Made by a program: the position numbers and the translations under genes. This document shows positions 8,030-28,900 of a stretch of 28,944 bases of DNA, in pieces. The DNA lies in the IMG/VR virus record IMGVR_UViG_3300046558_000241, positions 1 through 28,944 of that record, one strand, 5' to 3'. Under the pieces are notes generated by a model. It made no database searches and was not told where the DNA came from. It saw only the letters and a list, made by a program, of their open reading frames with translations. Source of the DNA: a virus. Within the stretch, counting starts at the first letter, position 1, and every line of letters starts with the position of its first letter.

Positions 8030-8040
8030 TAACAAAACCC

Positions 8041-12062: not shown

Positions 12063-12331
12063 GGTGCTACTGCCGCAGTCGCGGCGAGGCCGGCGGCAAG
12101 CTTGCTGCGTTCCCATGCTGTGATCTCGCGAGGCGTCATGTGGTAGTAGCCATGGGTACCGCAGGTTGGGCAAACCTTATCGGTCACACCCAGCCCGTGT
12201 CGCTTGCTGGCCACCCCAACAAGCTCGCCCTCATAGCCACGCCACTTACATTTCAGTTTGCCGCAGCGGATCGGTGCCGTGTTGTAGGCCGGACGCCCTT
12301 CCCTTGCCATGTTGCCGGTTTTCTCTTTCAA
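12059..12331 (-). CDS. Small zinc-ribbon protein
   Basis: About 90 residues with two cysteine pairs, CGKLKC and CPTCG, 32 residues apart, forming a likely zinc ribbon. The rest includes HMTPREITAWERSKLAAGL. I place the start at a TTG (12331) because AGGAGAA lies 5 nt upstream. The alternative is an ATG at 12310 giving MAREGRPAYNTAPIRCG, which lacks a good site. It begins immediately after the integrase stop. Likely a small DNA- or RNA-binding accessory protein, function unknown. Confidence 0.6.
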   Translation of the reverse strand: MKEKTGNMAREGRPAYNTAPIRCGKLKCKWRGYEGELVGVASKRHGLGVTDKVCPTCGTHGYYHMTPREITAWERSKLAAGLAATAAVAP

Positions 12332-12332
12332 T

Positions 12333-13490
12333 TTATTCTCCTGGTGTTGGTTCGGCTGGCGTCGATTTCGCGCCCGAATTGCCATCAACTGATGACTGAT
12401 GATAATCATCAACGTTTGTATCTATGCGGGTTTGCGGGGTACTGCTCGCCACTTTCTCGCCACGCCCGAAACCGATTTTCTCGGCGATATCGTTCTGCGC
12501 CTGCGCCGCCGTGTCCCGGTTTTTCTCCAGGTAGGCCATGGTGGTCATCGGCGACTTGTGGCGCATCACGGCCTGGATCGTCTGGATCGGCACGCCCTGC
12601 TCCGACAGCATCGTGGCAAACGTGCCGCGCAGCCTATGCGGGGTGATGCCCTTGATCTTGCAGCTCAGGTTGGCGGACTTCATGGCCTTGCGGGCGAAGC
12701 CCGGTGGATGCTGCTGGGCGCCGCCGCGCTTGCCGGCGATCAGGCCCTCCACCTGGCGGTGCGGCGCCAGCTGCTCGACCAACCAGGCCGGCACCGGCAC
12801 AGGCTCGGCTTCGCGGCCTTTAGTGATGCCCGGCGTGTAGGTGGCGCGCTGCCAGTCCAGCCATTCCCAGCGCGCGCCGGCCGCCTCGGACTCGCGCAGG
12901 CCCAAGCCGAACATCAGGCGGATGGCCGTGGCCACCGATGGGTCTACGCGCGTGACCTGGTCGACCGCGGCAAACCATTCAGCCACGGCCGCGATCGGCA
13001 GGATCGAGCGTGGCCGCTTCTGCACCTTCAGCATGCGCACCTGCCACGGGATCGAGCGGATGATCTCGCGCTTCACGGCCCAGTTGGCGATCAGCTTGAG
13101 CACGCGCAGCCAGTGGTTCGCGCTGGCTGGCTTGTGGTCGACCAGGTGCTGGTTGCGCGCCAGCTCGACGTGGCTGGTGGTGATCTGGTTCAGCGGCAGG
13201 TCGCCCAGGTCGTAGAAGTGCAGCCGGGCGGTGGTCTCGACACTGCGCTGGTGCGCGGCACTGCTGATCGGGCCGTTCACCTCCAGCCATTCCTGCGCCA
13301 TGGCCGCCAGCGTCGGCACGACTTTGCCGCCGTTGGTCAGGATCAGCGCCTCGTCGTACGCGCGCTGCGCTACAAGGTTGGCCTTCGCCTTGCTGCTCTC
13401 GCGGGTGCTGCGCTGGACGCGCGCGCCAGCGATCTGGAAGCGGTAGTGGTAATTCTTGGCCTTGCCGGCCCGGAACAGGTGAAAACTCAT
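12333..13490 (-). CDS. int: Tyrosine-type phage integrase
   Basis: 385 residues. The SAM-like core-binding domain is about residues 58-145 and the catalytic domain about 165-345. Catalytic residues visible: Arg199 in LGLRESEA, His285 and Arg288 in TPHRLRGTF, His311 in MRHKSPMTT and the nucleophile Tyr320 in MAYLEK. It performs site-specific recombination between phage and chromosomal attachment sites. The C-terminal 45 residues after GFGRG are low complexity and encoded by DNA that is repeated at 10761-10835. The gene lies among the early lytic genes, not at the prophage end, so excision relies on attachment sites about 11 kb away or more. Confidence 0.93.
   Translation of the reverse strand: MSFHLFRAGKAKNYHYRFQIAGARVQRSTRESSKAKANLVAQRAYDEALILTNGGKVVPTLAAMAQEWLEVNGPISSAAHQRSVETTARLHFYDLGDLPLNQITTSHVELARNQHLVDHKPASANHWLRVLKLIANWAVKREIIRSIPWQVRMLKVQKRPRSILPIAAVAEWFAAVDQVTRVDPSVATAIRLMFGLGLRESEAAGARWEWLDWQRATYTPGITKGREAEPVPVPAWLVEQLAPHRQVEGLIAGKRGGAQQHPPGFARKAMKSANLSCKIKGITPHRLRGTFATMLSEQGVPIQTIQAVMRHKSPMTTMAYLEKNRDTAAQAQNDIAEKIGFGRGEKVASSTPQTRIDTNVDDYHQSSVDGNSGAKSTPAEPTPGE
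12387..12461 (-). repeat. int: Direct repeat copy overlapping the integrase 3' end
   Basis: Partner of the repeat at 10761-10835 (about 75% identity over 75 bases, no gap). Includes the conserved blocks ATAATCAT, TATGCGG, TTGCGGGGT and CGCCACTTT. The pair brackets the zinc-ribbon, 80-residue, DUF550 and DUF4406 genes. Confidence 0.6.
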
Positions 13491-14267: not shown

Positions 14268-15157
14268 GTCCGGCTCCCGGGCTGTGTTCGGCCACGATTG
14301 ACGAATGCGGTCGGGTCAAACTTCGCCGGGCGGCCGCCCGCAGCACCATGAGGCGCATGCTGCTGCGCACCCAGCTTGGCCCAGTCCTCCCGAATCGCGT
14401 TCTGCAACGCCTGATCCCAGTCCGCGTAGGTGTAGCCATTGGCACGCGCCTTGCCGACGAACGAATCGAAGTGCGCCTGCAGGTTCGTGTGGCCTTTGGC
14501 TTGGGCCCAAGCCTGGACGGCGGCCGAAATCGTGAAATCGGATGGCAGCGGCGTCTTGGCTGGCTTGCGCGTGGTTTTCGACGCGGGAGCGGCGGCGACC
14601 GGAACGGTCGCGTGCTCCTGCTCCTGCTCCTGCTCCTGCTCTTGTTCCTGCTCTTGTTCCTGCTCTTGTTCCTGCTCTTGGCTTGCAAGGGGCTTTGAAG
14701 GGGCTTGTAAAACCGGTGCAATACTGTCGCCGGCACCGCGCTTTCTCGTCATGCAAAAAGAGATGGCGTAATGCTCGAAGAATCGCGCCAGGAAAGGGTT
14801 TGCGGGCAGCGCGTCATACTCGTTTTGCACACCCTTGACGCGCAAATCCCTGCCGGTCAAAGCATCTGCAATCTGGTATTTGGCCATTTCGACTACCCAA
14901 ACCATCTCCGAAGCCTCGTCATACTCACAAAACCCTGCTTCGACGGCCCTAACAAGCCCCTTCGCAGCCCCTTCAAAGCCCAATCCCGTCTCATGCGCGA
15001 TGAACATTTGCGGCACGTAGTACAGCCCCAACATGTTGGCGTGCGGCGACGTCATCAGGTACAGCGCGACGATCTGCGCCTCTGGCCCAGCCGCGCGCAG
15101 CTTTTTCCCGGTGGCACCGATCCAGAACTTGGGGCCCACCTTTCCGTAGTCACGCAT
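14264..15157 (-). CDS. Replication initiator O-like protein with (QE) repeat
   Basis: 297 residues from MRDYGKVGPKFW, the usual start of this phage replication family. The N-terminal domain (to about 130) is a winged-helix-like module with KKLRAAGPEAQIVALYLMTSPHANMLGLYYVP. A run of about eleven Gln-Glu pairs links it to a C-terminal helical domain (PLPSDFTISAAVQAWAQAKG ... YADWDQALQNAIREDWAKLG). It probably binds the phage origin and hands over to the P-like protein. The gene carries paired AAGGGGCTT repeats that may be its own origin. The Gln-Glu linker is encoded by a six-base repeat prone to slippage. Confidence 0.75.
   Translation of the reverse strand: MRDYGKVGPKFWIGATGKKLRAAGPEAQIVALYLMTSPHANMLGLYYVPQMFIAHETGLGFEGAAKGLVRAVEAGFCEYDEASEMVWVVEMAKYQIADALTGRDLRVKGVQNEYDALPANPFLARFFEHYAISFCMTRKRGAGDSIAPVLQAPSKPLASQEQEQEQEQEQEQEQEQEQEQEHATVPVAAAPASKTTRKPAKTPLPSDFTISAAVQAWAQAKGHTNLQAHFDSFVGKARANGYTYADWDQALQNAIREDWAKLGAQQHAPHGAAGGRPAKFDPTAFVNRGRTQPGSRT
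14614..14680. repeat. Six-base tandem repeat encoding a Gln-Glu run
   Basis: About eleven units of (C/T)TGCTC or CTTGTTC type on the plus strand, giving alternating Gln-Glu on the minus strand. The units differ only at synonymous third positions (CTCCTG versus CTTGTT), a pattern produced by slippage plus drift. Confidence 0.85.
14687..14973. repeat. Two inverted pairs of AAGGGGCTT repeats, candidate phage origin
   Basis: Plus-strand copies at 14687-14695 and 14698-14706 are 11 bp apart. Minus-strand copies at 14954-14962 and 14965-14973 (last with one mismatch) are also 11 bp apart. The outer flanks form a perfect 15-bp inverted repeat (14690-14704 and 14967-14981). Lambda-type origins sit inside the O gene and use such iterons. 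Confidence 0.4.
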
Positions 15158-15945: not shown

Positions 15946-16164
15946 TTATGCCTCCCGCCTAGGTATAGTCGAAATGTCCTCACCGCAGACTTCATGATGA
16001 AGCGCCTGGATCGAGCGAAGGGTTTTGCCTTTGCAATCTGCCTGGCCGTTCAAAATTCGATTCACGGTGGGCTGAGAAATGCCCAGTTTTTGAGCGATAA
16101 CAGGCTCACTCAAGCGTGTTCGTGCTTTGATTTCGCTAAGAAGGGTCGAGATATTTTTATCCAT
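15946..16164 (-). CDS. Cro-like repressor
   Basis: 72 residues from MDKNISTLLSEIKARTRLSE. It contains a helix-turn-helix EPVIAQKLGISQPTVNRILNG. The recognition helix QPTVNRIL is nearly the same as that of the divergent CI protein (QPTINRIL), implying shared operators. The start at 16164 lies 5 nt after a TATATT -10 box, so the message is probably leaderless. A longer frame to 16236 would cross the promoter and is rejected. It should repress cI and act early in the lytic programme. Confidence 0.85.
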   Translation of the reverse strand: MDKNISTLLSEIKARTRLSEPVIAQKLGISQPTVNRILNGQADCKGKTLRSIQALHHEVCGEDISTIPRREA

Positions 16165-16169
16165 ACCGC

Positions 16170-16248
16170 AATATATACGCGAATGGATAGTTGCGCAATA
16201 CCTGAATGAATAGGCACTTGTGCCTAAACTATACACAGACGTATATTG
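16170..16248. promoter_or_regulatory. cI/cro divergent promoters with three operator-like sites
   Basis: Minus-strand cro promoter: TTGCGC (16198-16193), 17 bp, TATATT (16175-16170). Plus-strand cI promoter: TTGTGC (16218-16223), 18 bp, TATATT (16242-16247). Three 22-bp sites of the form AACTAT-N10-ATAxxx are seen: O1 16171-16192 (minus), O2 16194-16215 (minus, first bases GCCTAT) and O3 16227-16248 (plus). O1 covers the cro -10 box and O3 the cI -10 box. A separate dyad AGGCAC-TT-GTGCCT (16212-16225) lies in the middle. Confidence 0.7.
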
Positions 16249-16252
16249 GATT

Positions 16253-16957
16253 ATGGATATAGCAAGCCGTTTAGATGAAGCAATGAAGGCTGCGGATTTT
16301 GATTCGCAAAGTGCACTCGCCCGCGCCTCCGGGGTACCTCAACCAACAATTAATCGTATTCTCAAAGGCGCCGGTAAGCGCGGGCCCGAAACTCAAACAA
16401 TTTCCAAACTTGCGCTAGCGTGCAACGTCGCGTTTCAGTGGCTGCTTGACGGCACAGGAGAAAAGATCCGCACCTACAACGTGCAAGAGGCGCCATCCGC
16501 CTATCACCAAGTTGTTGCCGCTGGTCCAAATGATCCCGACTTCTACGAAATTCCAAAGGTGAAGCTGAGCCTGTCAGCCGGGCTAACTGGCTTCCAGACG
16601 GTCCCGGAAATATACGATGGAAGTAAGGTAAGCGTGCCACGCAACTGGGCTGACCGTAACGGGTACATTCCAAGCAAGCTACTTGCCTTGACCGTTAAGG
16701 GAGAGAGCATGGAACCAGGGCTCGGGGAGGGTGATGTGGTGATCGTAAACACGGCAGATGAGAAGCTTGTCGATGGAAAAGTGTATGCGATAAACTATGA
16801 AGGCGAAGCAGTAATCAAGCGCCTTATGAGAGATTCAGGGGAGTGGTGGCTGACATCTGACAACGCAGATCAAAGACGATTCCCCCGGAAGTCATGCGGA
16901 GGTGGCGAGTGCATCATTGTGGGCCGCGTGGTCCGCAAAGAAAGCGATCGAATCTAG
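16253..16957 (+). CDS. CI-type repressor with LexA/S24 self-cleaving domain
   Basis: 234 residues from MDIASRLDEAMK. N-terminal helix-turn-helix about residues 18-39 (SQSALARASGVPQPTINRIL). The C-terminal peptidase S24 domain has the Ala109-Gly110 cleavage site (LSAGLTG), Ser152 in VKGESMEPG and Lys189 in EAVIKRL. So it should be inactivated after DNA damage through RecA-stimulated self-cleavage. The start at 16253 lies 5 nt after the TATATT box, so the message may be leaderless; a longer frame to 16220 would begin upstream of its -10 box. It is followed by the 16972-17508 gene and a terminator. Confidence 0.92.
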   Translation: MDIASRLDEAMKAADFDSQSALARASGVPQPTINRILKGAGKRGPETQTISKLALACNVAFQWLLDGTGEKIRTYNVQEAPSAYHQVVAAGPNDPDFYEIPKVKLSLSAGLTGFQTVPEIYDGSKVSVPRNWADRNGYIPSKLLALTVKGESMEPGLGEGDVVIVNTADEKLVDGKVYAINYEGEAVIKRLMRDSGEWWLTSDNADQRRFPRKSCGGGECIIVGRVVRKESDRI

Positions 16958-16971: not shown

Positions 16972-17508
16972 ATGGCAGGAGTTAAATGCGCCGAATGTGG
17001 CACCCACATCACGGTTCGCGGTCTTACACAGTGCCCTATTTGCAAGGCCCAGGTGGAACCTATCGCTGACAGCCGCCTCGGCCATGCAACCGAAAAACAC
17101 AGGTCAAAAAGCAAAGGTCCCACTGCACTCTCACCTAAAACAAAACTGAGTTTCGGTCATTGGATAGGTTTAGTCAGCATCTGTGGAATTATTGCTTCCG
17201 TTGCGGCCATACTCTGGAGCATCGCTAATCCGTCACCTGAAAAACTGCGCAAACGGGCGCTTGCAAATGCGCTTCTTACGTGCCAATACGCAATAAAAGG
17301 CACAGCCGGGCATGGCGGAGCGGAGTTGCCACCTTACGCAAAAAATTACGGCACTGCAGCCGACGAGTTCTATTTTTCTTGGCCACGCGGCTCGTTCGAA
17401 TTTCAGAATGGGTTCGGTGGAAAAGAGCAGATGTCGGCAAGCTGCATAGGTATATTGTCAACAAATACAATCACTCAACTTACGGTCAATGGCAAAGATA
17501 TGCTCTAG
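16972..17508 (+). CDS. Zinc-ribbon plus one-transmembrane protein in the cI operon
   Basis: 178 residues. N-terminal double CxxC zinc ribbon (CAECGTHITVRGLTQCPIC, about 6-24), a basic linker, one transmembrane helix (about 63-86, WIGLVSICGIIASVAAILWS) and a C-terminal extracytoplasmic region with DEFYFSWPRGSFEFQNG. GGAG lies about 6 nt upstream of the ATG. It is transcribed with cI, so it is probably made in the lysogen. Lower GC than its neighbours. Lysogenic-conversion or superinfection-exclusion roles fit the position but are unproven; no family recognised. Confidence 0.7.
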   Translation: MAGVKCAECGTHITVRGLTQCPICKAQVEPIADSRLGHATEKHRSKSKGPTALSPKTKLSFGHWIGLVSICGIIASVAAILWSIANPSPEKLRKRALANALLTCQYAIKGTAGHGGAELPPYAKNYGTAADEFYFSWPRGSFEFQNGFGGKEQMSASCIGILSTNTITQLTVNGKDML

Positions 17509-17534
17509 TCCAAGCACCGCACGCCAAAAGAACA

Positions 17535-17559
17535 AGCCATTCACGAATGGCTTTTTTTT
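17535..17559 (+). terminator. Terminator of the cI operon
   Basis: AGCCATT-(CACG)-AATGGCT followed by eight T. It ends the cI transcript just before the DGR promoter, so the DGR operon needs its own promoter. Confidence 0.85.
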
Positions 17560-17565
17560 ATAAAA

Positions 17566-17611
17566 AACTATTCATTCACGTATTGACATAACTATTCATT
17601 CGCGTATAGTT
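17566..17611 (+). promoter_or_regulatory. DGR operon promoter with two CI/Cro-like operators
   Basis: TTGACA at 17583-17588, 16 bp spacer, TATAGT at 17605-17610. Site A: AACTAT-N10-ATAGTT (17590-17611) covers the spacer and -10 box. Site B: AACTAT-N10-ATTGAC (17566-17587) covers the -35 box. Bases 17568-17608 match the cro promoter region (minus strand of 16174-16213) at about 35 of 41 positions with one gap. GGAGAG at 17641-17646 serves the first gene. Confidence 0.75.
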
Positions 17612-17649
17612 CAATCCATCGACGCACCACCTCAACCGATGGAGAGAAA

Positions 17650-18312
17650 ATGTCACACGCCGCCAGCAGCACGCCAGTACCCAGCGCCACCGTCAAAATC
17701 CCCTACCTCACCTGCGCTGAATGCAACGCAATCATCCAGGCCAATGCCAGCGCGCAGCCTGCCGCCACGCCAGCATCGGCCATCGACCTGATCGCTGACG
17801 GCCTGCTCGACGCCGAACTGTGGCCCGAGGACAGCGAGCTCGTCGCCGAGATACGCGCCATGTTCCTGGCTCATTGGGGCATGGACCAGGCGCAGGCCGA
17901 CGCGCGCATGTCCCGCCTGAACTACAGCGACGCTATCGCCGTCCTGGAACTCCAGGCGGGGCCCGGCGCCATCGGCAGCACCTTCGCCGGCGGCATGTAT
18001 GCCGGCATCATCCGCGGCGCCGACGGCCGGCCAGACGAACACCTTGTGCTGCTGGACGGTGACACCGACGGCGTCACCTGGGACGCCGCATGCGTCTGGG
18101 CCGCCGCCAAGGGCGCAACCCTGCCAACACGGGCCGAACAGCGCCTGCTCATGGCAAACCTGCCTGATCAATTCCAGGCGCGCTACTACTGGTCCAGTGA
18201 GCAGGCCGGCCCCTCTATCGCGTGGAGTCAGGATTTCGGCAGTGGCGGCCAGTACGACTTCTACCGCTCGTACGAGGGCCGCGCCCGCGCCGTCCGCAGA
18301 TTCCCAATTTAA
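17650..18312 (+). CDS. DGR target protein 1 (DUF1566-like / C-type-lectin-type variable protein)
   Basis: 220 residues. An extra N-terminal domain (1-100) has a CAEC motif and a helical segment (IDLIADGLLDAELWPEDSEL). The C-terminal 110 residues are the shared module: FAGGMYAGIIRGADG, TWDAACVWAAAKGATLPTRAEQRLLMANLPDQ, YYWSSEQAGPSIAW and a constant end RSYEGRARAVRRFPI. VR1 lies within the last 40 codons. Such DUF1566-type scaffolds carry variable residues on a binding face, as in DGR targets with the C-type-lectin fold. First gene of the DGR operon. No signal peptide seen, so it is probably cytosolic or carried on the virion. Confidence 0.85.
   Translation: MSHAASSTPVPSATVKIPYLTCAECNAIIQANASAQPAATPASAIDLIADGLLDAELWPEDSELVAEIRAMFLAHWGMDQAQADARMSRLNYSDAIAVLELQAGPGAIGSTFAGGMYAGIIRGADGRPDEHLVLLDGDTDGVTWDAACVWAAAKGATLPTRAEQRLLMANLPDQFQARYYWSSEQAGPSIAWSQDFGSGGQYDFYRSYEGRARAVRRFPI
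18199..18301 (+). repeat. Variable repeat VR1 of the DGR
   Basis: 103 bases matching the template repeat. The nine AAC/AAT template codons read SDGSGYDFY here, with 12 of 18 template adenines changed and no other base changed in that block. The last 36 bases are identical to the template. The first codon is GAG where the template has ACG. Confidence 0.95.
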
Positions 18313-18353
18313 TCATTTATTAATTTTCTTTGCTTTTTTCTTAAGGGCGTCAC

Positions 18354-18644
18354 ATGAAATTCAATATCTATTTGGTCATAGCAGTGGCCATCATCGGCGC
18401 CATCACGGGCAGCCTGGCCATGAGCTTGGGCGAAATCGAGCCAGCGGCCAGCGCCGCCATCATCCTGGTATCCGTGCTGGTCTTGGGCTGGGGCGCCGGC
18501 AACATGTCGTCTCGCGCCGAGATCGAGCGCCTGAGCGGCATCGAGGAAGCGCGCCGCATCCAGGCCAGCTGCCTGGTCGCCATGCGCAACCGCTTGGAAA
18601 GCGAACTGGAGAGCCTGCGCGTTGTGAATGGCGGTGCATTGTGA
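18354..18644 (+). CDS. Small membrane protein with C-terminal coiled coil
   Basis: 96 residues. Two hydrophobic helices (about 5-24, VIAVAIIGAITGSLAM, and 30-51, AIILVSVLVLGWGAG) then a charged helical tail (SRAEIERLSGIEEARRIQ ... RNRLESELESLRVV). AAGGG lies about 7 nt upstream. Two membrane segments with a cytoplasmic coiled coil could be holin-like or a membrane tether, but no lysis neighbours are present. Not recognised. It overlaps the next gene (GTGA), so it belongs to the DGR operon. Confidence 0.65.
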   Translation: MKFNIYLVIAVAIIGAITGSLAMSLGEIEPAASAAIILVSVLVLGWGAGNMSSRAEIERLSGIEEARRIQASCLVAMRNRLESELESLRVVNGGAL

Positions 18645-19372
18645 GCGCCACGAAGACACCGAACCAGCAACCGATGGACATGACGGCTGGCACGCAAGCC
18701 TCCGCACACGATAGCTTGGTGCTGACTGCGAAATTCCTACCTATCGTGGCGCCATTCTTGTCCAAATTCGATCCTCGCTACTACTTGAAAGGCCTGAACG
18801 TGCGGCCTTTGTCGGGCGGTGGTGTAACTATCTGCGCGACCAACGGTCAGATTCTCGGGGTTTTTCGTGACCCGGATGGAATTTGCCTTGAAGAAGTGAC
18901 CCTGGTTATCGGCACTGAAGTGCGGGCGGCGTGCGCTGCCGGCATCGACAGCAATCGCAAGGTAGTGATGCGCAACGGTCGCCTGACGGTGATCGACGGA
19001 GCCGGCAACGACATCTGCATCCAGGCAGGCAACCCGATAGTCGACCCTTCGAAACCGTACCCGCGCTTCGAGAAAGTGGTACCGCCAGCAGGTGAATTGA
19101 ATCCAGGCCTGATTGGCGTCATCAATTCCCCCCTCTTGATGAAGCTGAACGCTGCGGCGGTCAGCGCCAGACGGGCGAGCGGCATCCGCAAAAGCTACCG
19201 CGATTTTCATGGACTGACGTTTTTCAACGTGGGCGGTGACGGCAACAAATGCACGGTGGCGCGCTTCGATTTCGATGCCGACTTCCTTGCGATCGTCATG
19301 CCACTGCGCGCTGAGAACGATATCAGCAAGCCGCTGCCATCTTGGATGCAAGACGAGCGAGACGCAGCATGA
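18641..19372 (+). CDS. Sliding-clamp-like protein (beta-clamp-related)
   Basis: 243 residues from a GTG overlapping the upstream stop; an in-frame ATG at 18674 is the alternative. The central segment FDPRYYLKGLNVRPLSGGGVTICATNGQILGVFRDPDG, then VVMRNGRLTVIDG and YPRFEKVVP, follows the pattern of the second and third domains of DNA polymerase beta clamps (RYYLNG..., ATDGHRLA..., FPDYRRVLP). The length is about two thirds of a full three-domain clamp. It may be a phage processivity or clamp-mimic protein. The resemblance is by eye and needs structure-based searching. Confidence 0.45.
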   Translation: MSATKTPNQQPMDMTAGTQASAHDSLVLTAKFLPIVAPFLSKFDPRYYLKGLNVRPLSGGGVTICATNGQILGVFRDPDGICLEEVTLVIGTEVRAACAAGIDSNRKVVMRNGRLTVIDGAGNDICIQAGNPIVDPSKPYPRFEKVVPPAGELNPGLIGVINSPLLMKLNAAAVSARRASGIRKSYRDFHGLTFFNVGGDGNKCTVARFDFDADFLAIVMPLRAENDISKPLPSWMQDERDAA

Positions 19373-19734
19373 AGCGCCCCCGCCTTCCTCACCCAAATTC
19401 GCGCTCCTACGCCTTGCTGCAGGCGCTGGTCGTGCGGCCCGGCACCTTTTACCAGGTCGTCGAGCGCGCCGGCTTCGATATCGAGGCCACCGGCATGGAG
19501 CAGCGCTTGCGCCTGATTTTCACGCACGGCATCCAGCGCCACGTGCACCAGGACGGGATCATGTACGAGATCAAAGCGACCTCCCGCGACGCAATGCTGG
19601 GCATCAACCCTGCGCCGGCGGACGCCGGACAGGTGGCTGCGCCACATTTTCGCGGCGCCGCCAGCGCGATGCCTGTGCTGGTCGTGCGCCGCAGCAGCAA
19701 AACCAATACCTCACCCATGCAGCAATCCACCTGA
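19369..19734 (+). CDS. Hypothetical protein in the DGR operon, 121 residues
   Basis: From MKRPRLPHPNSRSYALLQAL. The first 70 residues look like a winged-helix-type fold: SYALLQALVVRPGTFYQVVERAGFDIEATGMEQRLRLIF resembles small phage DNA-binding or regulator modules that sense subunit number. The tail is basic (VVRRSSKTNTSPM). The start overlaps the clamp-like gene stop (ATGA) and the stop lies 10 nt before target 2. Not recognised. Confidence 0.6.
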   Translation: MKRPRLPHPNSRSYALLQALVVRPGTFYQVVERAGFDIEATGMEQRLRLIFTHGIQRHVHQDGIMYEIKATSRDAMLGINPAPADAGQVAAPHFRGAASAMPVLVVRRSSKTNTSPMQQST

Positions 19735-19744
19735 AAGAGAAGCC

Positions 19745-20131
19745 ATGACCACCACTACCGCAGTTGCACTCTCCACCATCCCCGCCGCCATCGGCGCCGC
19801 ATTCGCCGGCGGCATCTACGCCGGTATCAGCCGCGGCGTGGACGGCGCGCCCGACCAGCACCTGGTGCTGCTGCCCGGTGAAGCTGTCGATGTCGACTGG
19901 GAGGCCGCTGGCGCCTTCGCTGCCAGTGTCGGTGGCGAGTTGCCGACGCGCGCCGAGCAGGCGCTGCTCTACGCCAATTTGAAAGACCAGTTCGAGCCGC
20001 GCTGGTACTGGTCCAGTACGCAGGCCGGCCCCTCTACCGCGTGGCTTCAGGGTTTCGACAATGGCTACCAGGACTTCGGCAACCGCTCGTACGAGGGCCG
20101 CGCCCGCGCCGTCCGCAGATTGCCAATTTAA
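19745..20131 (+). CDS. DGR target protein 2 (DUF1566-like variable protein)
   Basis: 128 residues, essentially the variable module alone: a short N-terminus, then FAGGIYAGISRGVDGAPDQHLVLLPG, WEAAGAFAASVGGELPTRAEQALLYANLKDQFEPRWYWSS, and the VR2 region ending RSYEGRARAVRRLPI. It keeps the scaffold of target 1 without its N-terminal extension. AGAGAAG lies just upstream of the ATG. The 3' flank (AATTTAA-x-C/T-ATTTATTAATTTTCTTT) is nearly the same as that of target 1, indicating gene duplication that included downstream DNA. Confidence 0.88.
   Translation: MTTTTAVALSTIPAAIGAAFAGGIYAGISRGVDGAPDQHLVLLPGEAVDVDWEAAGAFAASVGGELPTRAEQALLYANLKDQFEPRWYWSSTQAGPSTAWLQGFDNGYQDFGNRSYEGRARAVRRLPI
20018..20120 (+). 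repeat. Variable repeat VR2 of the DGR
   Basis: 103 bases. Nine template codons read LGDNYDFGN, with 11 of 18 adenines changed. The 5' codon is ACG as in the template, unlike VR1 and VR3, so its homing tract reaches further 5'. Confidence 0.95.
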
Positions 20132-20167
20132 CTATTTATTAATTTTCTTTCACTTCGAAAGCCCAGC

Positions 20168-20530
20168 ATGAGCAAACAACAATTCATGGCCGAGAACCTG
20201 CGGGAAGGCGAGATCTATGCCGGACTGATCCTCGGCAAGGACGGCGCCGCCGACTACCACCTGTTCCTGCAACCAGGCGCCGTAACTGGCGTGAAGTGGC
20301 AGGCGGCCATGGACTGGGCCAAGAAGCTCGGCCACAGCCTGCCGACGCGCGCCGAGCAGGCACTGCTGTTCGCCAACTTGAAACACGAGTTCGAACCCCG
20401 CTACTACTGGTCCAGTGAGCAGGCCGGCCCCTCTCACGCGTGGGATCAGGGTTTCGACTATGGCGTCCAGAACTACGGCCACCGCTCGTACGAGGGCCGC
20501 GCCCGCGCCGTCCGCAGATTAGAAATTTAA
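20168..20530 (+). CDS. DGR target protein 3 (DUF1566-like variable protein)
   Basis: 120 residues from MSKQQFMAENLREGEIYAGL. The same module as targets 1 and 2 (IYAGLILGKDGAADYHLFLQPG, WQAAMDWAKKLGHSLPTRAEQALLFANLKHEFEPRYYWSS) with VR3 at the end. Outside the repeat it differs clearly from target 2 in sequence, so it is an older paralogue and not a recent copy. It ends 18 nt before the Avd gene. Ribosome binding site weak. Confidence 0.88.
   Translation: MSKQQFMAENLREGEIYAGLILGKDGAADYHLFLQPGAVTGVKWQAAMDWAKKLGHSLPTRAEQALLFANLKHEFEPRYYWSSEQAGPSHAWDQGFDYGVQNYGHRSYEGRARAVRRLEI
20417..20519 (+). repeat. Variable repeat VR3 of the DGR
   Basis: 103 bases. Nine template codons read DGDYVNYGH, with 11 of 18 adenines changed. 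It shares the CAC codon with the template at the position where VR1 and VR2 have ATC and ACC. The 5' codon is GAG. Confidence 0.95.
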
Positions 20531-20548
20531 CCCCTTAACCATTTCAAC

Positions 20549-20923
20549 ATGGCCAACCATACCGACCTGCCGATTTCCAAAGTTGCCTACGACCTGCTGG
20601 TCGTGGCGACCGACTTGACCAAAAATATGCCCCGCGACTTCAAGGCATCGGTCGGCAAGGAAATCCGTGACGAGTGCGTGCGCTTGACGGTGCTCATCTT
20701 CCGCGCGAACGTCGCGGGCGACAAAACACCGTATCTCGACAAGCTACTCGAGCGCGCGCAGGTGATCGAGTTGCTGTTCCGGCTTTCCAAGGACTTGCGC
20801 TTTATCTCAGTCGCGCAGTATGCGCGGGCCATCGCACTGACCAGCATGATCGGCAAACAGGCCGGCGGCTGGAAGAAATACACCGCATCGTCGCCTGCAT
20901 CTTCCCGGTCAAGGCCGGGTTGA
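20549..20923 (+). CDS. avd: Avd, DGR accessory variability determinant
   Basis: 124 residues. Four-helix-bundle pattern typical of Avd: VAYDLLVVATDLTKNMPRDFK, VGKEIRDECVRLTVLIFRANVA, YLDKLLERAQVIELLFRLSKDL, SVAQYARAIALTSMIGKQAGGWKKY. Avd forms a basic pentameric barrel that binds the reverse transcriptase and template RNA and is required for mutagenic copying in the Bordetella phage DGR. Position between the last target and the template repeat is the canonical one. No clear Shine-Dalgarno; start chosen by family alignment. Confidence 0.9.
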   Translation: MANHTDLPISKVAYDLLVVATDLTKNMPRDFKASVGKEIRDECVRLTVLIFRANVAGDKTPYLDKLLERAQVIELLFRLSKDLRFISVAQYARAIALTSMIGKQAGGWKKYTASSPASSRSRPG

Positions 20924-21077
20924 CTGTGCGAATTTTTTAATCTGGTCGTGCCGCTGGCCCACAAGGCCACCGCTATGCGCACCACAGTAACCGTCTGGCG
21001 GTGTCCAGGCAGGCCTGGCGCAGTTTCCCCACTGATCGGCATGGCCTTCGGTGGGGCGACGTAGATAGCACGAATTG
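20924..21077 (+). ncRNA. Leader of the DGR template RNA (avd-TR spacer)
   Basis: A 154-base noncoding stretch between avd and the template repeat. Contains CCAGGC-AG-GCCTGG (21003-21016) as a strong small hairpin. In known DGRs sequence 5' of the template repeat is part of the RNA bound by Avd and the reverse transcriptase. RNA ends are unknown. Confidence 0.5.
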
Positions 21078-21180
21078 ACGCAGGCCGGCCCCTCTCACGC
21101 GTGGAATCAGAATTTCAACAATGGCAACCAGAACAACAACAACCGCTCGTACGAGGGCCGCGCCCGCGCCGTCCGCAGAT
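21078..21180 (+). repeat. DGR template repeat (TR)
   Basis: 103 bases holding nine AAC/AAT codons plus one CAC in the target reading frame (NQNFNNGNQNNNNRS). Outside the 5' codon and position 21096, all differences between TR and VR1-VR3 are at TR adenines. A GC-rich constant 3' part with the perfect palindrome CTCGTACGAG (21145-21154) is identical in all four copies and would act as the homing (IMH-like) end. Confidence 0.96.
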
Positions 21181-22284
21181 CATCCCGATACGGACTTCAC
21201 GCTCGAGCAGCTGGCCGTCGCATATTTCGACTGCCGCCGCAGCAAACGCAATACCCCCAGCGCCCTGGTGTTTGAGCAGCACCTGGAGCGCAACCTGATC
21301 AACCTGTTCGATGACCTGCAGGATGGCAGCTACCAGCCCGGCCAGTCGATATGCTTCGTCGTCACGCGCCCCAAAGCGCGCGAGGTGTGGGCGGCTGACT
21401 TCCGCGACCGCGTGGTGCACCACCTGCTTTACAACAAGATTTCGCCGCGCTTCTACGCCTCATTCATCAAGGACACCTGTGCCTGCATCCCCGGGCGGGG
21501 CACGATGTACGCGGCCAAGCGCCTCGAGGCGAAGATCCGCAGCGTCACGCAGAACTGGAGCAAGCCCGCGTTTTACCTGAAATGCGACCTGGCCAACTTC
21601 TTCGTCGCCATCGACAAGGACGTGCTGCGTGGGCAGATCGCGGCGCGCGTCAGCGAGCCATGGTGGCTGCGCCTGGCCGAAACGATCCTGTTTCACGACC
21701 CACGCGAGAACTACCAGCTGCGCGGCGCGCCCGAGCTGCTGGCGCGCGTGCCGGCGCACAAACGCCTGGTCAATCAGCCAGTGCACCTGGGCCTGCCGAT
21801 TGGCAACCTGTCGTCGCAGTTCTTCGCCAATATCTACCTCGATGCGCTGGACCAGCATGCCAAGCACAAGATCGGCGCCCGGCACTATATCCGCTACGTC
21901 GACGACTTCCTGCTGCTGCACGAATCGCCGCAGTGGCTGGGCACGGCGCTGGCCAACTTAAACGAGTTCCTGCCGCGCGTGCTGCACGCCAACCTCAATC
22001 CCAGCAAGACGATCCTGCAGCCGATCGCACGCGGCGTCGACTTCGTTGGCCAGGTCATCAAGCCTTGGCACAGCCGCACACGGCGCCGCACCGTGCACGA
22101 GGCAACCAGCCGTATTGCCGGCATCCCGGCGGCCGACGTGTTCGCGGCAGCCAACAGCTACTTCGGCCTGCTGCGCCAGGCGGACAGCAGCCATGCTGAC
22201 CGTGCTGCGCTGGCGCGTGCGGTGATGCGGCGCGGGCATTGCGTCAACGGAGCGCTTACCAAAACCTATAGGAAATCATCATGA
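21121..22284 (+). CDS. DGR reverse transcriptase
   Basis: 387 residues from the only ATG in frame; the true start may be later. Motifs: NKISPRFYASFIKDTCACIPGRG with GRG at 125-127, LKCDLANFF with catalytic Asp156, LGLPIGNLSSQFFANIYLD (223-241; the I/LGNLxSQ form is typical of DGR enzymes) and YVDD at 259-262. Then LNPSKT and VDFVGQVI (thumb). It copies template RNA into cDNA with random incorporation at adenines, and the cDNA replaces a variable repeat. The ATG at 21121 lies inside the template repeat and has no ribosome binding site, so residues 1-20 would be encoded by the repeat in another frame. The stop overlaps the next gene (ATGATG). Confidence 0.95.
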   Translation: MATRTTTTARTRAAPAPSADHPDTDFTLEQLAVAYFDCRRSKRNTPSALVFEQHLERNLINLFDDLQDGSYQPGQSICFVVTRPKAREVWAADFRDRVVHHLLYNKISPRFYASFIKDTCACIPGRGTMYAAKRLEAKIRSVTQNWSKPAFYLKCDLANFFVAIDKDVLRGQIAARVSEPWWLRLAETILFHDPRENYQLRGAPELLARVPAHKRLVNQPVHLGLPIGNLSSQFFANIYLDALDQHAKHKIGARHYIRYVDDFLLLHESPQWLGTALANLNEFLPRVLHANLNPSKTILQPIARGVDFVGQVIKPWHSRTRRRTVHEATSRIAGIPAADVFAAANSYFGLLRQADSSHADRAALARAVMRRGHCVNGALTKTYRKSS

Positions 22285-22706
22285 TGTACGACCCCGCCCA
22301 CATCGAACGCCAGCACCTGGCAAACCAAGCCGTGCCCGCCTATTCACTGATTCGCAAGGCCTGCGCATGCGGCAAGGCCAGCACCGCAAAACAGCTGGCC
22401 CAGCAAGGCAAATGCGCCGCATGCGCGCTGGTGGCCGTCCGCGACGCAATCATGCCTGGCGACTTCGCCAAGCTTCAGCACATGCTGGGCGCCGTGCGGC
22501 AATATCCGAAGTCCAAGTGGGGCTGGCGCAACTATTTTGCCGCCGGCAGCGGCCAGCAGCACGAGGCCATGCAGCGCCTCGTGACCGCTGGCCTTGCCAC
22601 GGCCGGCCGCGCATGCGGCGACATGACCTATTTCTACGCTACCCGCCTGGGTTGCAAGGCTGCTGGCCTCGATGGCGCTGGCATCAAGCGCGCGATGGAG
22701 GATTGA
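22281..22706 (+). CDS. Hypothetical protein after the reverse transcriptase
   Basis: 141 residues from MMYDPAHIERQHLANQAVPA. Two cysteine pairs (CACGKAST and CAAC, about 29-49) suggest a small zinc site, followed by a helical domain with FAKLQHMLGAVRQYPKSKWGWRNYFAAG and HEAMQRLVTAGLATAGRA. No family recognised; the tail resembles phage proteins of unknown function with a C-terminal winged-helix-like segment. Overlaps the reverse transcriptase stop and precedes the PAPS-reductase-family gene by 2 nt. Confidence 0.65.
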   Translation: MMYDPAHIERQHLANQAVPAYSLIRKACACGKASTAKQLAQQGKCAACALVAVRDAIMPGDFAKLQHMLGAVRQYPKSKWGWRNYFAAGSGQQHEAMQRLVTAGLATAGRACGDMTYFYATRLGCKAAGLDGAGIKRAMED

Positions 22707-22708
22707 AG

Positions 22709-23701
22709 ATGAGTCTTATCCATCTGGTATCCCTTTCGGGCGGCAAAGACAGCACGGCTACAGCTATCCTCGCGCTCGAGCAGCACGGTGCGACCGCATG
22801 CCGCTTCGTCATGGCCGATACGGGCAACGAGCACGAGAGCACGTTGGAATATGCGCTGGACTACTTGCCGGCGGCCTTGGGCATCAAGGTCGACGTGGTA
22901 CGAGCCGATTTCGCTGACGAGTTCGCCACCAAGCGCGCCAACCTAGCGCGCATCGCTGCCGGCGAACCCGAGTCTGCCGTGTATGGGAAGCGCAAGTTCA
23001 TGTATCACTGGACGGCCGAGGCCGCACAGCGTGCGCTTGAGTTGCTACATCCATCTGGAAACCCGTACCTTGACCTTTGCATGGTGCGAGGTGGCTTCCC
23101 ATCGCGCAAACGGCAGTTTTGCACGGAATATCTCAAAACCAAGCCCTTGACGGAGTTCGCCATGGATTTGATCGATCGTGAATGCGATGCGATCTGGTCC
23201 TGGCAGGGCGTCCGTATCGATGAAAGCCAATCACGTCGCGAACGGCTGCAAGGTACTGGCGCATGCGTCAAGCACTTTGAGGTGGTGGGCGGCGGCCTGT
23301 TCACCTACCGGCCCATCTTGCGCTGGAACGTCGGTGACGTGTTCGAGGCCCATCGCTTGGCTGGCATCGAGCCAAATCCGCTCTACAAGCAAGGCATGTC
23401 GCGCGTCGGCTGCATGCCTTGCATCAACTGTAGCAAAGGGGAGTTGCATGAGGTGTCGCGCCGGTTCCCCGAGCACATCGCTCGAATCGCGGAATGGGAG
23501 GCTCTGGTGTCGGAAGTGTGCCGGCCGCGCTCCCCCGTGTCGTTTTTCCATATGGGTACCAAGGCGCACGCGGGTCAGGCATCTACCATCGAATCGGTGG
23601 TCGAGTGGTCAAAGACCAGTCGCGGCGGCAAACAATTTTCACTGCTCACAGCGCTGGACGAACCAACGGCGTGCAGCTCTGCTTACGGATTATGCGAATG
23701 A
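22709..23701 (+). CDS. PAPS reductase-family ATPase (DndC-like superfamily)
   Basis: 330 residues from MSLIHLVSLSGGKDSTATAI. The N-terminal PP-loop SLSGGKDS (about 8-15) binds and adenylates, and VMADTGNEHESTLEY follows as in the family. The C-terminal part has GCMPCINCSKGELHEVSRRFPEH, a cysteine cluster with phage-type spacing. Proteins of this family transfer sulfur or adenylate groups; DndC-type members take part in DNA phosphorothioate modification. The role here is unknown. In the PAPS-reductase line phage copies are common near the right end of prophages. A longer in-frame region upstream of 22709 belongs to the neighbouring gene's shadow. Confidence 0.8.
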   Translation: MSLIHLVSLSGGKDSTATAILALEQHGATACRFVMADTGNEHESTLEYALDYLPAALGIKVDVVRADFADEFATKRANLARIAAGEPESAVYGKRKFMYHWTAEAAQRALELLHPSGNPYLDLCMVRGGFPSRKRQFCTEYLKTKPLTEFAMDLIDRECDAIWSWQGVRIDESQSRRERLQGTGACVKHFEVVGGGLFTYRPILRWNVGDVFEAHRLAGIEPNPLYKQGMSRVGCMPCINCSKGELHEVSRRFPEHIARIAEWEALVSEVCRPRSPVSFFHMGTKAHAGQASTIESVVEWSKTSRGGKQFSLLTALDEPTACSSAYGLCE

Positions 23702-23988
23702 CGACCAACATCACGAGCGACAAATGGCGCGGCGAACGCGGCGAACCGACCAATCCGGCTACGGTGCGCTTCAAGGCTCAAGAGGCGCAAGCACCCAGCT
23801 GCGAGGGCTGCCTGTTCGAGCGCTCTTACGGCGTGTGCTCGACGGCAGCAGTGCACGCTGTGGCCAACGACCAGCCGGACTGCGACGACCGCTCACCGGG
23901 CGGCATGACCTACATCTACGTGCTGGACCGCAGCGACCCGCGCCAGCTCGACCTTATCAAGACCCTGCAAATGGAGAACGCATCATGA
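23698..23988 (+). CDS. Small cysteine-containing protein, 96 residues
   Basis: From MTTNITSDKWRGERGEPTNP. A central cluster (CEGCLFERSYGVCS ... PDCDDRS, about 35-66) could bind zinc. The C-terminal YIYVLDRSDPRQLDLIKTL is a likely strand-helix. Start overlaps the upstream stop (ATGA). Similar short proteins with CxxC-x8-C spacing occur next to AlpA-type regulators in prophages. Function unknown. Confidence 0.65.
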   Translation: MTTNITSDKWRGERGEPTNPATVRFKAQEAQAPSCEGCLFERSYGVCSTAAVHAVANDQPDCDDRSPGGMTYIYVLDRSDPRQLDLIKTLQMENAS

Positions 23989-24185
23989 ACACTACGCCAC
24001 AACCTGTCGAACAACGCCTGTACAAAATCAGCAGCGCCATGGAGCGCCTGGAGGTATCCCGCGCCACACTGTACCGCATGGTGTCGCGCGGCCAGCTGGT
24101 CCTAGTCAAGATCAGCATCGGCGCCAGCAGAATCACATCGGAAAGCCTGGCTTTGGCCATGAGGGGAAGAAAGCCGGGCGAATAA
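23985..24185 (+). CDS. AlpA-like excisionase / helix-turn-helix regulator
   Basis: 66 residues. Begins MNTTPQPVEQRLYKISSAME, then the winged-helix motif RLEVSRATLYRMVSRGQLVLVKIS and a basic tail MRGRKPGE. Residues 12-55 follow the MerR-like DNA-binding pattern of excisionases and AlpA-type regulators. It is the last phage gene and overlaps the previous one (ATGA). Such proteins direct integrase towards excision. That would place control of excision in the same operon as the DGR. Confidence 0.75.
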   Translation: MNTTPQPVEQRLYKISSAMERLEVSRATLYRMVSRGQLVLVKISIGASRITSESLALAMRGRKPGE

Positions 24186-24229
24186 AGGCCGTGTATGATG
24201 CGGCAAGAAGCGCCCCAAAGTGGCTCATC

Positions 24230-24263
24230 AACGATTTGTAGCTAGAATTGTAGCCAGATCGTT
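24230..24263. repeat. Short tandem and inverted repeats at the prophage right end, possible attR region
   Basis: TTGTAGCTAGA (24236-24246) and TTGTAGCCAGA (24248-24258) form a tandem repeat with one mismatch and a 12-bp period. Flanking AACGAT (24230-24235) and ATCGTT (24258-24263) are inverted. Arm-type sites of integrases look like this, but the core cannot be confirmed without the left end. Confidence 0.35.
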
Positions 24264-24318
24264 TTTCACAAGACACGAAGCCTTGAAACCCGCATAAAAC
24301 ATGACTGTAAATCAAATA

Positions 24319-25198: not shown

Positions 25199-28100
25199 TT
25201 ATGTCACGCGTTCCAATAGTACCTGCGCATTCGCTGCAGGCACTGGCGCGGAAAACAGATAGCCCTGCGCATAGCGGCAGCCGTTCGCCTGCAGCAGGGC
25301 GAACTGTTCTTCCGTCTCCACGCCCTCGGCCACGGCCGACAATTGCAGGCTGTCGGCCAGCGCGATGATGGCGGCCACGATGGCGCGGTCTTCCGCGCTG
25401 TGCTCGAGGTCCTTGATGAAGGCGCGGTCGATCTTGACCTTCTTTACGGGGAAGCGCTTCAGGTAGGCCAGGCTGGAATAGCCGGTACCGAAATCGTCGA
25501 TCGACAGGCGCAAGCCCATGCCATTGATCTGCCGCAAAATCTCCAGGGTATGCTCGCCGTGCTGCATCAGCGCCGTCTCGGTGATCTCGAATTCCAGCAA
25601 CGCCGGATCGATGCCCGTCTCCCGCACCACGGCGCCGATGGACGCCACCAGGCCCTTGTGCATGAACTGGCGTGGCGACAAATTCACCGCCAGCGGCACC
25701 GGCTGCAAGCCCTGGCGCTGCCACGCCATGCTTTGCTCGCACGCCTGGCGCATCACCCATTCGCCCACCGGCACGATCAGGCCGTTTTCCTCCATGATGG
25801 GAATGAAGCGCTCGGGCAGCACCAGGCCGTGGCCGGGACGGCGCCAGCGCAGCAGCACTTCCATGCCATGCAGGCGGCGCGTGGCGATGTCGATGACGGG
25901 CTGGTAAAACAACTCGAACTGCTGCAGCGCCAGCGCCGTGCGCAAGCTGCTTTCCAGGTCGAAGTGCAGGGCCGCCGCCTGGTTCATCGTCTGCGTGAAG
26001 AACTGGTAGTTATTGCGGCCATTGCCCTTGGCATGGTACATGGCCGCATCTGCATGGCGCATCAGGGTGTCGACATCGCCGCCGTCGTCCGGACACACGC
26101 AAATGCCGATCGATGGCGTCACGTGCAGCACATGGCCATCAAGCGGAAAGGCAGGCGTCAGCGCCTCGATGATCTTCTCGGCCACGCGTGCCGCTTCCTC
26201 GCCGCCGCGGATGCCCGGCAGCAGCACGACGAATTCATCGCCACCCAGGCGCGCCACCGTGTCGCTGGCGCGCACGGCGCGGCACAGCCGGGCGGCCACT
26301 TCCTTGAGCAGCAAATCGCCCGTCATGTGGCCCAGCGAATCGTTGATGGTCTTGAAGCGGTCCAGGTCGATGAACATCACGGCCAGCTTGTGCCCGGAGC
26401 GCTGTGCGGCCAGCATGGCCCGTTCCAGCCGGTCCGACAGCAGCGCGCGGTTCGGCAAGCCCGTCAGGTTGTCGTGGTAGGCCATGTGGTGCACCCGCGC
26501 CTCGGCCTGGCGCCGCTCGGCGATCTCGCCCTGCAGCAGCAAATTCGCGCCGGCCAGTTCGGCCGTGCGTTCCTGCACGCGCAGTTCCAGTTCGTCGCGC
26601 GCGCGGCGCACCGCCTCGGCCGCCTCGCGGCGCGCGGTCACGTCGTCGACCAGCCATACGGAACGGCCATGCGCATGCGCCAGGTCGAACGGCCTGCCTG
26701 ACAGGCGCGCCCAGAAGCGGCTGCCATCCTTGCGCACCAGTTGGTGTTCCGACATGTGCACGCGGCCCGCGCCGAAGTCGCGCGCCGTCTCGCCGCGCGC
26801 CACCTTCCACGCCGCCGCGTCCGGGTACAGGGCCTGCACCGACAGGCCGTTGATCTCGCCGGGCCCATAGCCGAACAGCTCTTCCATCTTGCTGTTGGCG
26901 CGCAGATTGTAGCCGCCCTCCACCACCGAGATGCCCAGCACGGCGCTGTCGAGGATGGCCTGGTTTTCCAGCAGCGCATTGCGCAAGGATTCTTCGGCGC
27001 GCTTGGCTTCCGTGCGGTCCTCGATGATCCAGATGGTGCCGGCGGCAGGATCGTCCGGATTGACGACATAGGCAATCAGCTGCGCCCACAGGGTGCTGCC
27101 GTCGCGGCGCATCATTTCCACTTCCGTCTGGAAGGGCTTGGCCACCGAGAGGAAGGGAAAGGCCGCCGCGCCCAGCAACTCGTACGACTGCTGCGATACA
27201 TACAGCGCGCGCCCGGGCAAGCCCAGCGCCTCGTCGCCGCTGTAGCCGAACATCGCGGCAAAACCCAGGTTATAGCGCGTGATCAGGCGGTTCTTGGTGT
27301 ACAGGATGCTCACCGAGGAATTCGTCATGATGGCCGCCACTTCCATCTGCGCCTGGCGGCTGGCAGTGACGTCTTCGAGGATCCAGATGGTGCCCTGCTC
27401 GCTGCGCGCCTGGTCGACGGCCTTGGCGCGGATGCGGCACCAGAACAGGCTGCCGTCGCGGCGGCGGAACAGCGATTCATCCTGCTCGTACGGCAAGCCC
27501 TGTCCCAGCAGCGGCGTGGCCTGCACGCCAAACTCCTCGTAGGCGGCGGGCGAGGGAAACAGTTCGGCGGCGGGCAGGCCCGTCATCTCCTCCTGCGCGT
27601 AGCCGAACATTTCGGCGAAGCGGGGATTGCAGCGCAGGATCAGGCGCGAACGCGAAAACAGGATGCCGACGGAGGCATTGTCGAGGATGGCCTGCTGCTC
27701 CAGCATCAGCTGGCGCGTGGCCTCCTCGGCCGCCTTCTGCGCACTGCGGTCGTCGAACAGCCAGATCGTGTCGCGCAAGCCGCGGTCGGTCTGGCTCTCC
27801 GTGTTCAGTACATAGCCATACGCCAGCGCCCAGAATGTGGAGCCGTCGCGGCGGCGCATCTCCATCTCGCCCTGGAACGGCAGACCGCGCCGCAGCAGCG
27901 GCGAAGCCTGCCGCACGACCTGCTCGTACGCCGCGCGCGAAGGGTACAGGTCGGCGACGGCCATGCCCACGCCGCTGTCGCCGTCGAAGCCGAAGCATTC
28001 GGCGAAGCGCCGGTTGTAGCGCAGCACGCCCTTGTCGCGCTGAAAACCGATGGCCAGCGGCGCGTTGTCCATCACGGCCTGCATTTCCAGCATGGCGCGG

Positions 28101-28900
28101 CGCAGCTGGTCTTCATCGCGCCGGTGGTCGCTGATATCTTCGATGATCCATACCGTGCCGTCATGCGTATTGAGCGGGTCGACGGCGCGCCCGTGCAAGC
28201 GGCTCCAGAACAAGCTGCCATCCTGGCGCCGCAATTCCAGCTCCGTGCGGTACGGCTTGCCCTTCGAGAGCAGCGGCGCCGCTTCCAGCCCCAGGGCGCG
28301 GCAATGCTCGGCGGAGCGGTACAGCACCGCGCCCGGCATGCCCGTCAGCTGGTGGCGCGCATAGCCGAGCATCTCGGCGGCGCGGATATTGCACTCCTCG
28401 ATGAAACCGCCCCTGGAAAACACGATACCCACGGCCGCGCTTTCCAGGATCGCCTGCTGCTCCAGCAAGGTCTTGCGCAAGGCTTGCTGGTCGCGCTGCT
28501 GTACGCTGATATCGGCAAACATCAGGGTCGCACCCGGCAAGCCGTCGCCGACCAGCAGGGGCCTGGCCCACACTTGCACGGCAATGGCGGCATTGACTCC
28601 TTCCAGGCTGCTGTCCCAGTGCCGTTCACGCCCGGCCGCGCCGAGCGCACCGCGCAGCATGCTGGTGCTCGAGGCGCGGTAGGCGTCGGTAAAACAGTCG
28701 GCCAGCAGCCGGCCCGACACATCCCTGCCCAGCAAGGCGCCCAAGGCATCATTGGCGGCCACCACCACACCGCAGGCATCGCAGGCGCAGGCCGGCAAGG
28801 CGATCAGTTGCAAGGCATCGGCAATGAAATCGGGACTCGTCGGCACGCGGTTCATGGACACCATGGGTCGGTTGGTAGCGGTCGGCATGCACCCGAGCAA
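25199..28900 (-). CDS. Multi-PAS diguanylate cyclase/phosphodiesterase (host)
   Basis: 1233 residues; start uncertain (ATG at 28900, 28888 and 28858 are in frame). No transmembrane segment seen. Six PAS domains in tandem (roughly 25-135, 140-260, 265-390, 395-515, 518-640, 640-765), most opening with LLEQQAILDNASVGI-type sequence, so they arose by internal duplication. A coiled coil (about 775-810) leads to a GGDEF domain with intact GGDEF near residue 886 and the RxxD inhibitory site (RASD) five residues before it. The EAL domain follows, with EVLLRW near 1013, NLSPRQF, EITET, IDDFGTGYSS and EGVETEEQF. Both domains keep their catalytic residues. It likely adjusts cyclic di-GMP in response to redox, light or other PAS ligands. 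Confidence 0.95.
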   Translation of the reverse strand: MLGCMPTATNRPMVSMNRVPTSPDFIADALQLIALPACACDACGVVVAANDALGALLGRDVSGRLLADCFTDAYRASSTSMLRGALGAAGRERHWDSSLEGVNAAIAVQVWARPLLVGDGLPGATLMFADISVQQRDQQALRKTLLEQQAILESAAVGIVFSRGGFIEECNIRAAEMLGYARHQLTGMPGAVLYRSAEHCRALGLEAAPLLSKGKPYRTELELRRQDGSLFWSRLHGRAVDPLNTHDGTVWIIEDISDHRRDEDQLRRAMLEMQAVMDNAPLAIGFQRDKGVLRYNRRFAECFGFDGDSGVGMAVADLYPSRAAYEQVVRQASPLLRRGLPFQGEMEMRRRDGSTFWALAYGYVLNTESQTDRGLRDTIWLFDDRSAQKAAEEATRQLMLEQQAILDNASVGILFSRSRLILRCNPRFAEMFGYAQEEMTGLPAAELFPSPAAYEEFGVQATPLLGQGLPYEQDESLFRRRDGSLFWCRIRAKAVDQARSEQGTIWILEDVTASRQAQMEVAAIMTNSSVSILYTKNRLITRYNLGFAAMFGYSGDEALGLPGRALYVSQQSYELLGAAAFPFLSVAKPFQTEVEMMRRDGSTLWAQLIAYVVNPDDPAAGTIWIIEDRTEAKRAEESLRNALLENQAILDSAVLGISVVEGGYNLRANSKMEELFGYGPGEINGLSVQALYPDAAAWKVARGETARDFGAGRVHMSEHQLVRKDGSRFWARLSGRPFDLAHAHGRSVWLVDDVTARREAAEAVRRARDELELRVQERTAELAGANLLLQGEIAERRQAEARVHHMAYHDNLTGLPNRALLSDRLERAMLAAQRSGHKLAVMFIDLDRFKTINDSLGHMTGDLLLKEVAARLCRAVRASDTVARLGGDEFVVLLPGIRGGEEAARVAEKIIEALTPAFPLDGHVLHVTPSIGICVCPDDGGDVDTLMRHADAAMYHAKGNGRNNYQFFTQTMNQAAALHFDLESSLRTALALQQFELFYQPVIDIATRRLHGMEVLLRWRRPGHGLVLPERFIPIMEENGLIVPVGEWVMRQACEQSMAWQRQGLQPVPLAVNLSPRQFMHKGLVASIGAVVRETGIDPALLEFEITETALMQHGEHTLEILRQINGMGLRLSIDDFGTGYSSLAYLKRFPVKKVKIDRAFIKDLEHSAEDRAIVAAIIALADSLQLSAVAEGVETEEQFALLQANGCRYAQGYLFSAPVPAANAQVLLERVT

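Follow-up and report, generated by a model that had tools for sequence, protein, structure and literature searches.

The 28,944-base stretch analysed here (the window) is the IMG/VR virus record IMGVR_UViG_3300046558_000241, which lacks most tail genes, and it carries a diversity-generating retroelement (DGR) on its plus strand. On the 3′ side of a gene for a CI-like repressor lie, in order, target gene 1 (17650-18312), three other genes (18354-19734), target genes 2 (19745-20131) and 3 (20168-20530), avd (20549-20923), the structured RNA RT-15 (20889-21080), the template repeat (TR, 21078-21180) and the reverse transcriptase gene (RT, 21121-22284). More phage genes follow, and at about 24185 the sequence becomes chromosomal and xthA-like. 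The first-pass annotation had described these DGR components as one plus-strand operon. While they are indeed all on the plus strand, three unrelated genes are interposed between targets 1 and 2, one of them RusA-like by profile match, and non-DGR genes, including a PAPS-reductase-family and an excisionase-like gene, are found at 22281-24185. The operon is therefore larger than the DGR and mixed with it.

A repeat search that did not assume adenine specificity returned four 103-nucleotide copies on the plus strand, the TR and one variable repeat (VR) in the part of each target gene that encodes the C-terminus: VR1 at 18199-18301, VR2 at 20018-20120 and VR3 at 20417-20519. Of the 81 adenines compared between the TR and the three VRs 38 are changed, but of the 228 other bases only 4 (odds ratio 49, p = 1e-21). 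This supports the earlier proposal of adenine-specific mutagenesis from one template into three targets. Recounting the block of nine AAC/AAT codons gave exactly the reported figure, 34 of 54 adenines changed and no other base, and the suggested repertoire of about 10^11 per target was also reproduced (15^9 × 4 = 1.5e11), with stop codons impossible. Two of the four non-adenine differences are at the repeat edge, the first two bases (AC versus GA) being outside the true repeat, and the other two are C to A at TR position 21096 in VR1 and VR2; neither pair was in the earlier count. At 21096 the window TR has C, giving CAC, where ten related TRs have AAC at the same codon, and we therefore think that the window template has probably changed from A to C. 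VR3 has CAC at this codon, which fits writing after the template change but could also come from AAC; as proof of writing after the drift it is weakened, since one VR of a related locus whose TR has AAC (L005) is also CAC. A second template drift is seen in another relative (L009), where the ninth base of the aligned repeat (GCCGA) is A in the TR, C in all three VRs and G in other TRs.

The profile search identified the RT as a member of the DGR clade (phrog_1423, E = 8e-116), as had been proposed. It is 31% identical to brt of Bordetella phage BPP-1 (E = 2e-42) and retains the YVDD and LPIGNLSSQ motifs. The assignment of avd also stood, with a match to phrog_3206 (E = 1.2e-32) and a score above the Pfam bAvd cut-off; the protein is under the NCBIfam Avd cut-off and has no significant BLASTP similarity to BPP-1 Avd.

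To follow the repeats over longer times we compared 11 Janthinobacterium-type loci. The mean pairwise distance is 0.005 for the TR and 0.087 for the RT, while for VR3 it is 0.547 in the adenine columns and 0.015 in the others, and VR3 is different in all 11 loci. With TRs near-invariant and VR3 hypervariable only at the template adenines, it would seem that the element writes, or did so recently. In the wider family 620 of 1435 adenines differ between TR and VR and at least 18 of 3421 other bases, the latter rate being a lower bound as the pairs came from an adenine-tolerant search that biases it low. Differences in length within the repeat occur in 13 of 179 family VRs, six of them of +3, though gap placement is rough. 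Among 77 non-redundant family loci, 53 have two VRs, 20 have three, three have four and one has a single VR. Several VRs are found in 28.6% of DGRs generally (PMC6642488), but with two to four in 76 of 77 loci multiple targets are the norm in this family, and the statement that three targets for one template are less common is wrong for it.

The RT-15 RNA (Rfam RF03018) abuts the 5′ end of the TR and matches the full Rfam model with 180.5 bits (E = 7e-45, gathering threshold 82). It was the only hit in an Rfam scan of 17000-24300 at E ≤ 1, in which RF03022 (Phage_DGR), the spacer RNA of the BPP-1 type, was not found; in the same kind of scan of BPP-1, RF03022 was found at 2750-2882, between TR and brt. 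RT-15 is 5′ of the TR in all ten relatives scanned. In L022, a family locus where the RT is about 960 nucleotides away behind a methyltransferase gene, RT-15 remains with the TR, and it is therefore tied to the template rather than to expression of the RT. The Rfam entry gives only the name ‘RT-15 RNA’; in this family the RNA adjoins the TR and keeps that place when the RT moves off. Our literature search, which lacked some key surveys, returned no paper on RT-15, so priority on RT-15 or on the TR/RT overlap described below could not be fully judged.

The RT reading frame appears to start inside the TR. The sole in-frame ATG, GTG or TTG 5′ of the RT homology is at 21121, with an in-frame stop at 21076, and the first 20 residues of this open reading frame, beginning MATRTTTT, are TR-encoded. 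Across the family the distance from the TR 3′ end to the RT keeps to one frame in 72 of 74 loci despite nine different lengths, and the 190 nucleotides 5′ of the TR contain 60 stops in the RT frame compared with 217 and 231 in the other two. It is likely from these patterns that the TR is translated through, encoding the first 20 or so residues of the RT in another reading frame. Overlap of the TR with the 5′ end of annotated RT genes has already been noted in DiGReF (PMC3521204), where the section on the overlap does not raise the question of translation; here the frame lock across relatives supports it. The loci L022, L052 and L086, in which the RT lies apart from the TR (with a C5-methyltransferase-like gene between them in L022), provide natural tests of the TR-RT linkage.

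Each VR in the window is followed on the plus strand by an AT-rich ‘ATT box’ (18300-18329, 20119-20148 and 20518-20547 after VR1, VR2 and VR3, respectively). Such a box follows 149 of 175 family VRs and none of 74 TRs, against a background of 70 in 4620 (1.5%), and within it ATT occurs at offsets 0, 7, 15 and 23, a repeat of about every eight nucleotides. VR flanks within a locus are 58% identical over positions +1 to +30 and 31% over +31 to +60, so the constraint is local. Judged from its position, the box is probably a target mark. Homing in BPP-1 depends on a GC hairpin after the VR, which was put forward as a general, conserved feature that DGRs require (PMC3240598). Hairpins of this kind (GC-rich, 7-10 bp with a four-nucleotide loop) were rejected for the window: with BPP-1 as a positive control none was found at the window VRs, and in the family only six of 175 VRs have one. 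One of these, a hairpin with a GACA loop in a locus whose RT has 50% identity (L099), may resemble the ancestral form.

Upstream of target 1 is a sigma-70 promoter-like sequence (TTGACA-16-TATAGT, 17583-17610, plus strand) that matches the consensus at 11 of 12 positions, this match being its sole basis. It is overlaid by two exact copies of the operator-like word CTATTCATTCRCGTAT (17568-17583 and 17592-17607, plus strand). Two further copies, each with one mismatch, lie on the minus strand between cro and cI (16175-16190 and 16198-16213). The four matches in the window compare with 0.14 expected, and four were reached in none of 100 shuffles. The adjoining CI-like repressor (16220-16957, plus strand, real start probably about 16253) has a helix-turn-helix (HTH) and an S24 autoprotease domain (Pfam HTH_3, E = 1e-8; Peptidase_S24, E = 1.7e-20). 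The divergent Cro-like protein (15946-16236, minus strand, real start probably about 16164) has weak HTH matches only, the best being HTH_24 (E = 6.5e-5), and is named from its position opposite cI. A hairpin followed by a T run, resembling a terminator, precedes the operon (17534-17553, plus strand), though such sites in the region are no more numerous than chance. In Burkholderia phage Magia and four further relatives (L005, L037, L040 and L043) a different word occurs both in the gap between cro and cI and ahead of the first target; these sites adjoin HTH/S24 genes in the four loci and the annotated cro and repressor in Magia, and in L043 the promoter-side sites precede an open frame some way 5′ of the first mapped VR. 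As the window has the repeats both at cI/cro and at the DGR promoter, the DGR operon is probably repressor-controlled, an early operon like that of lambda PL that would be active after induction.

Target 3 (120 residues) was predicted by AlphaFold2 with a pLDDT of 97 and has a C-type lectin (CLec) fold. Its best Foldseek match in the PDB is the C-terminal domain of Legionella Lcl (8q4e, E = 9e-5), the domain of DUF1566 (Lcl_C). Identity to it is 22%, the Pfam Lcl_C score is below cut-off, and no collagen-like or signal region was seen. Target 2 (128 residues) matches phrog_4245 (E = 1e-11) and, below cut-off, Lcl_C (E = 1e-4); target 1 (220 residues) matches phrog_4245 (E = 1e-8) and has a C-terminal CLec-type domain. 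Both align with target 3, though the AlphaFold2 model of target 1 (pLDDT 44) is too poor to use. By inspection, with no dedicated predictor run, no target has an obvious signal peptide.

The first-pass annotation likened the element to the BPP-1 type. The Bordetella phage DGR (mtd-avd-TR-brt) does share the Avd-TR-RT order, the adenine-specific VR, the Avd family and the CLec-fold target, but the comparison is not borne out in detail. BPP-1 has 144 nucleotides with RF03022 between TR and brt, whereas the window has no TR-RT spacer and carries RT-15 on the 5′ side of the TR; BPP-1 has a GC hairpin with a GAAA loop four nucleotides after the VR, in place of which the window has the ATT box; and the window DGR is on the early side of the phage genome. 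The family thus differs from BPP-1 in the site of the RNA element and in the target-adjacent signal, and probably in two further respects, the translation of the RT and the timing of switch-on. In kind the DGR is ordinary, genuine and probably functional. Magia (MT701587) belongs to the same family, with an RT of 64% identity, a cI-side operon and small lectin-fold targets, and differs in the N-termini of its targets and in the operator-like word. Its authors described a potential DGR and gave genes 47 and 57 as the sites of its targets (PMC7883833); gene 46, which they did not list, has a third VR.

The rest of the window is arranged as a prophage. Head genes (major head protein, portal and terminase, 411-8636) are on the minus strand, as are the replication genes, among which a DnaD-like helicase loader gene contains a 12-base tandem repeat (14601-14680, GAGCAG-rich, encoding an EQEQ run). 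The tyrosine integrase (12333-13490, minus strand) is in mid-prophage, and the excisionase-like gene (23985-24185) is at the chromosomal edge by xthA. The RusA-like gene between targets 1 and 2 (18641-19372, plus strand) is weakly similar to resolvases of the RusA type (phrog_3007, E = 2.5e-10). The PAPS-reductase-family protein (22709-23701), encoded in the direction of the DGR operon, is weakly similar to the DNA-sulfur and defence families DndC, SspD and BrxP; matches of this protein and of the RT in a defence library were taken as family-level similarity. The chromosomal flank has an open frame of about 1233 residues (25199-28900, minus strand) with repeated motifs that look PAS-like and GGDEF/EAL-like by eye. 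This right-hand flank is 90-94% identical to positions 11099-12793 of a metagenome contig (L038), which points to a shared integration site. From the RTs that are 94-96% identical, we infer a Janthinobacterium-like host.

Taking these observations together, we consider it likely, at a probability of roughly 0.8, that the window holds a complete RT-15-family DGR of a temperate phage, repressor-controlled, with an RT-15 and TR template RNA, three targets, targeting through the ATT box and a TR that is probably dual-coding. CI and/or Cro would probably bind the operator that cI/cro and the DGR promoter have in common, keeping the operon off in the lysogen and allowing it on after induction or infection. 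Avd and the RT would then bind the RNA of RT-15 followed by TR, and the RT would copy the TR with the errors opposite adenines that the repeat comparison reveals. The cDNA would replace the VR of any of the three targets, chosen through the 3′ end that the repeats share and probably also through the ATT box that the TR lacks, giving three CLec-fold proteins with up to about 1e11 variants each. Several points weigh against parts of this scheme. The pairs of near-identical IMG/VR records with identical RTs also have identical VRs, so ongoing writing was not caught. The ATT box could partly reflect descent, given the 58% flank identity. The operator-word search gave nothing in several relatives and was not calibrated against chance there. 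There is no obvious Shine-Dalgarno sequence at the ATG at 21121, and the RT frame is also open through RT-15 and TR in L022 and L086, where the RT is not joined; openness alone therefore proves nothing, and we rejected it as sufficient proof of translation. The drifted template codon and the identical VRs of the identical-RT pairs might be taken to mean that the DGR is decaying and inactive, but this is very improbable, as all open reading frames are intact, the RT motifs are kept, and VRs differ from the TR and among relatives almost solely at adenines. That the TR is untranslated, the RT starting at a non-canonical codon after it or using a separate signal, and that the frame lock is simply inherited, would account for the missing Shine-Dalgarno sequence and for the open frame of L022 and L086, and a start codon does follow the TR in 16 of 77 loci. 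It seems to us unlikely, however, since 61 of the 77 loci have no ATG, GTG or TTG between TR and RT homology, the frame is held over so many lengths, and in the window similarity to BPP-1 starts at residue 23, directly after the TR-coded part.

What the targets do is less clear. A conventional tropism-switching DGR, whose targets are virion or receptor-binding proteins that widen host range as in BPP-1, would be consistent with the CLec fold, as in known DGR targets, with the viral targets of several DGR clades being mostly annotated as tail proteins (PMC8144416), and with the host-range change suggested by the Magia authors (PMC7883833). We nevertheless regard it as doubtful. The targets, of 120-220 residues, matched no tail family in profile searches, and they are encoded on the repressor-side operon, on the strand opposite to the head genes, though in a record without most tail genes. 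The targets of Magia, Haboob, Cruim01 and phPA-G are placed in the same way, with the tail or late genes at other sites, and the DGR of related phages is likewise found in the repressor-side operon, next to genes of the recT, methyltransferase or restriction-alleviation type. A role in tail fibres is thus unproven for products of an early operon that is not beside the head genes, and action inside the cell is plausible. Only tentatively, then, would we propose that a repressor-controlled DGR with an RNA element 5′ of the TR, an RT start within it and the ATT box as its mark diversifies small, apparently intracellular early proteins, binders for counter-defence or host takeover, instead of tail fibres.

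As neither the BPP-1 spacer, whose RNA primes the cDNA in that phage (PMC12875486), nor the VR hairpin is found in this family of Janthinobacterium, Burkholderiales and Pseudomonas phages, the family offers a direct comparison for DGR priming and target choice. From the shared operators, diversification would seem to be linked to prophage induction, and an intracellular action of the targets, if real, would take the function of phage DGRs beyond tropism switching.

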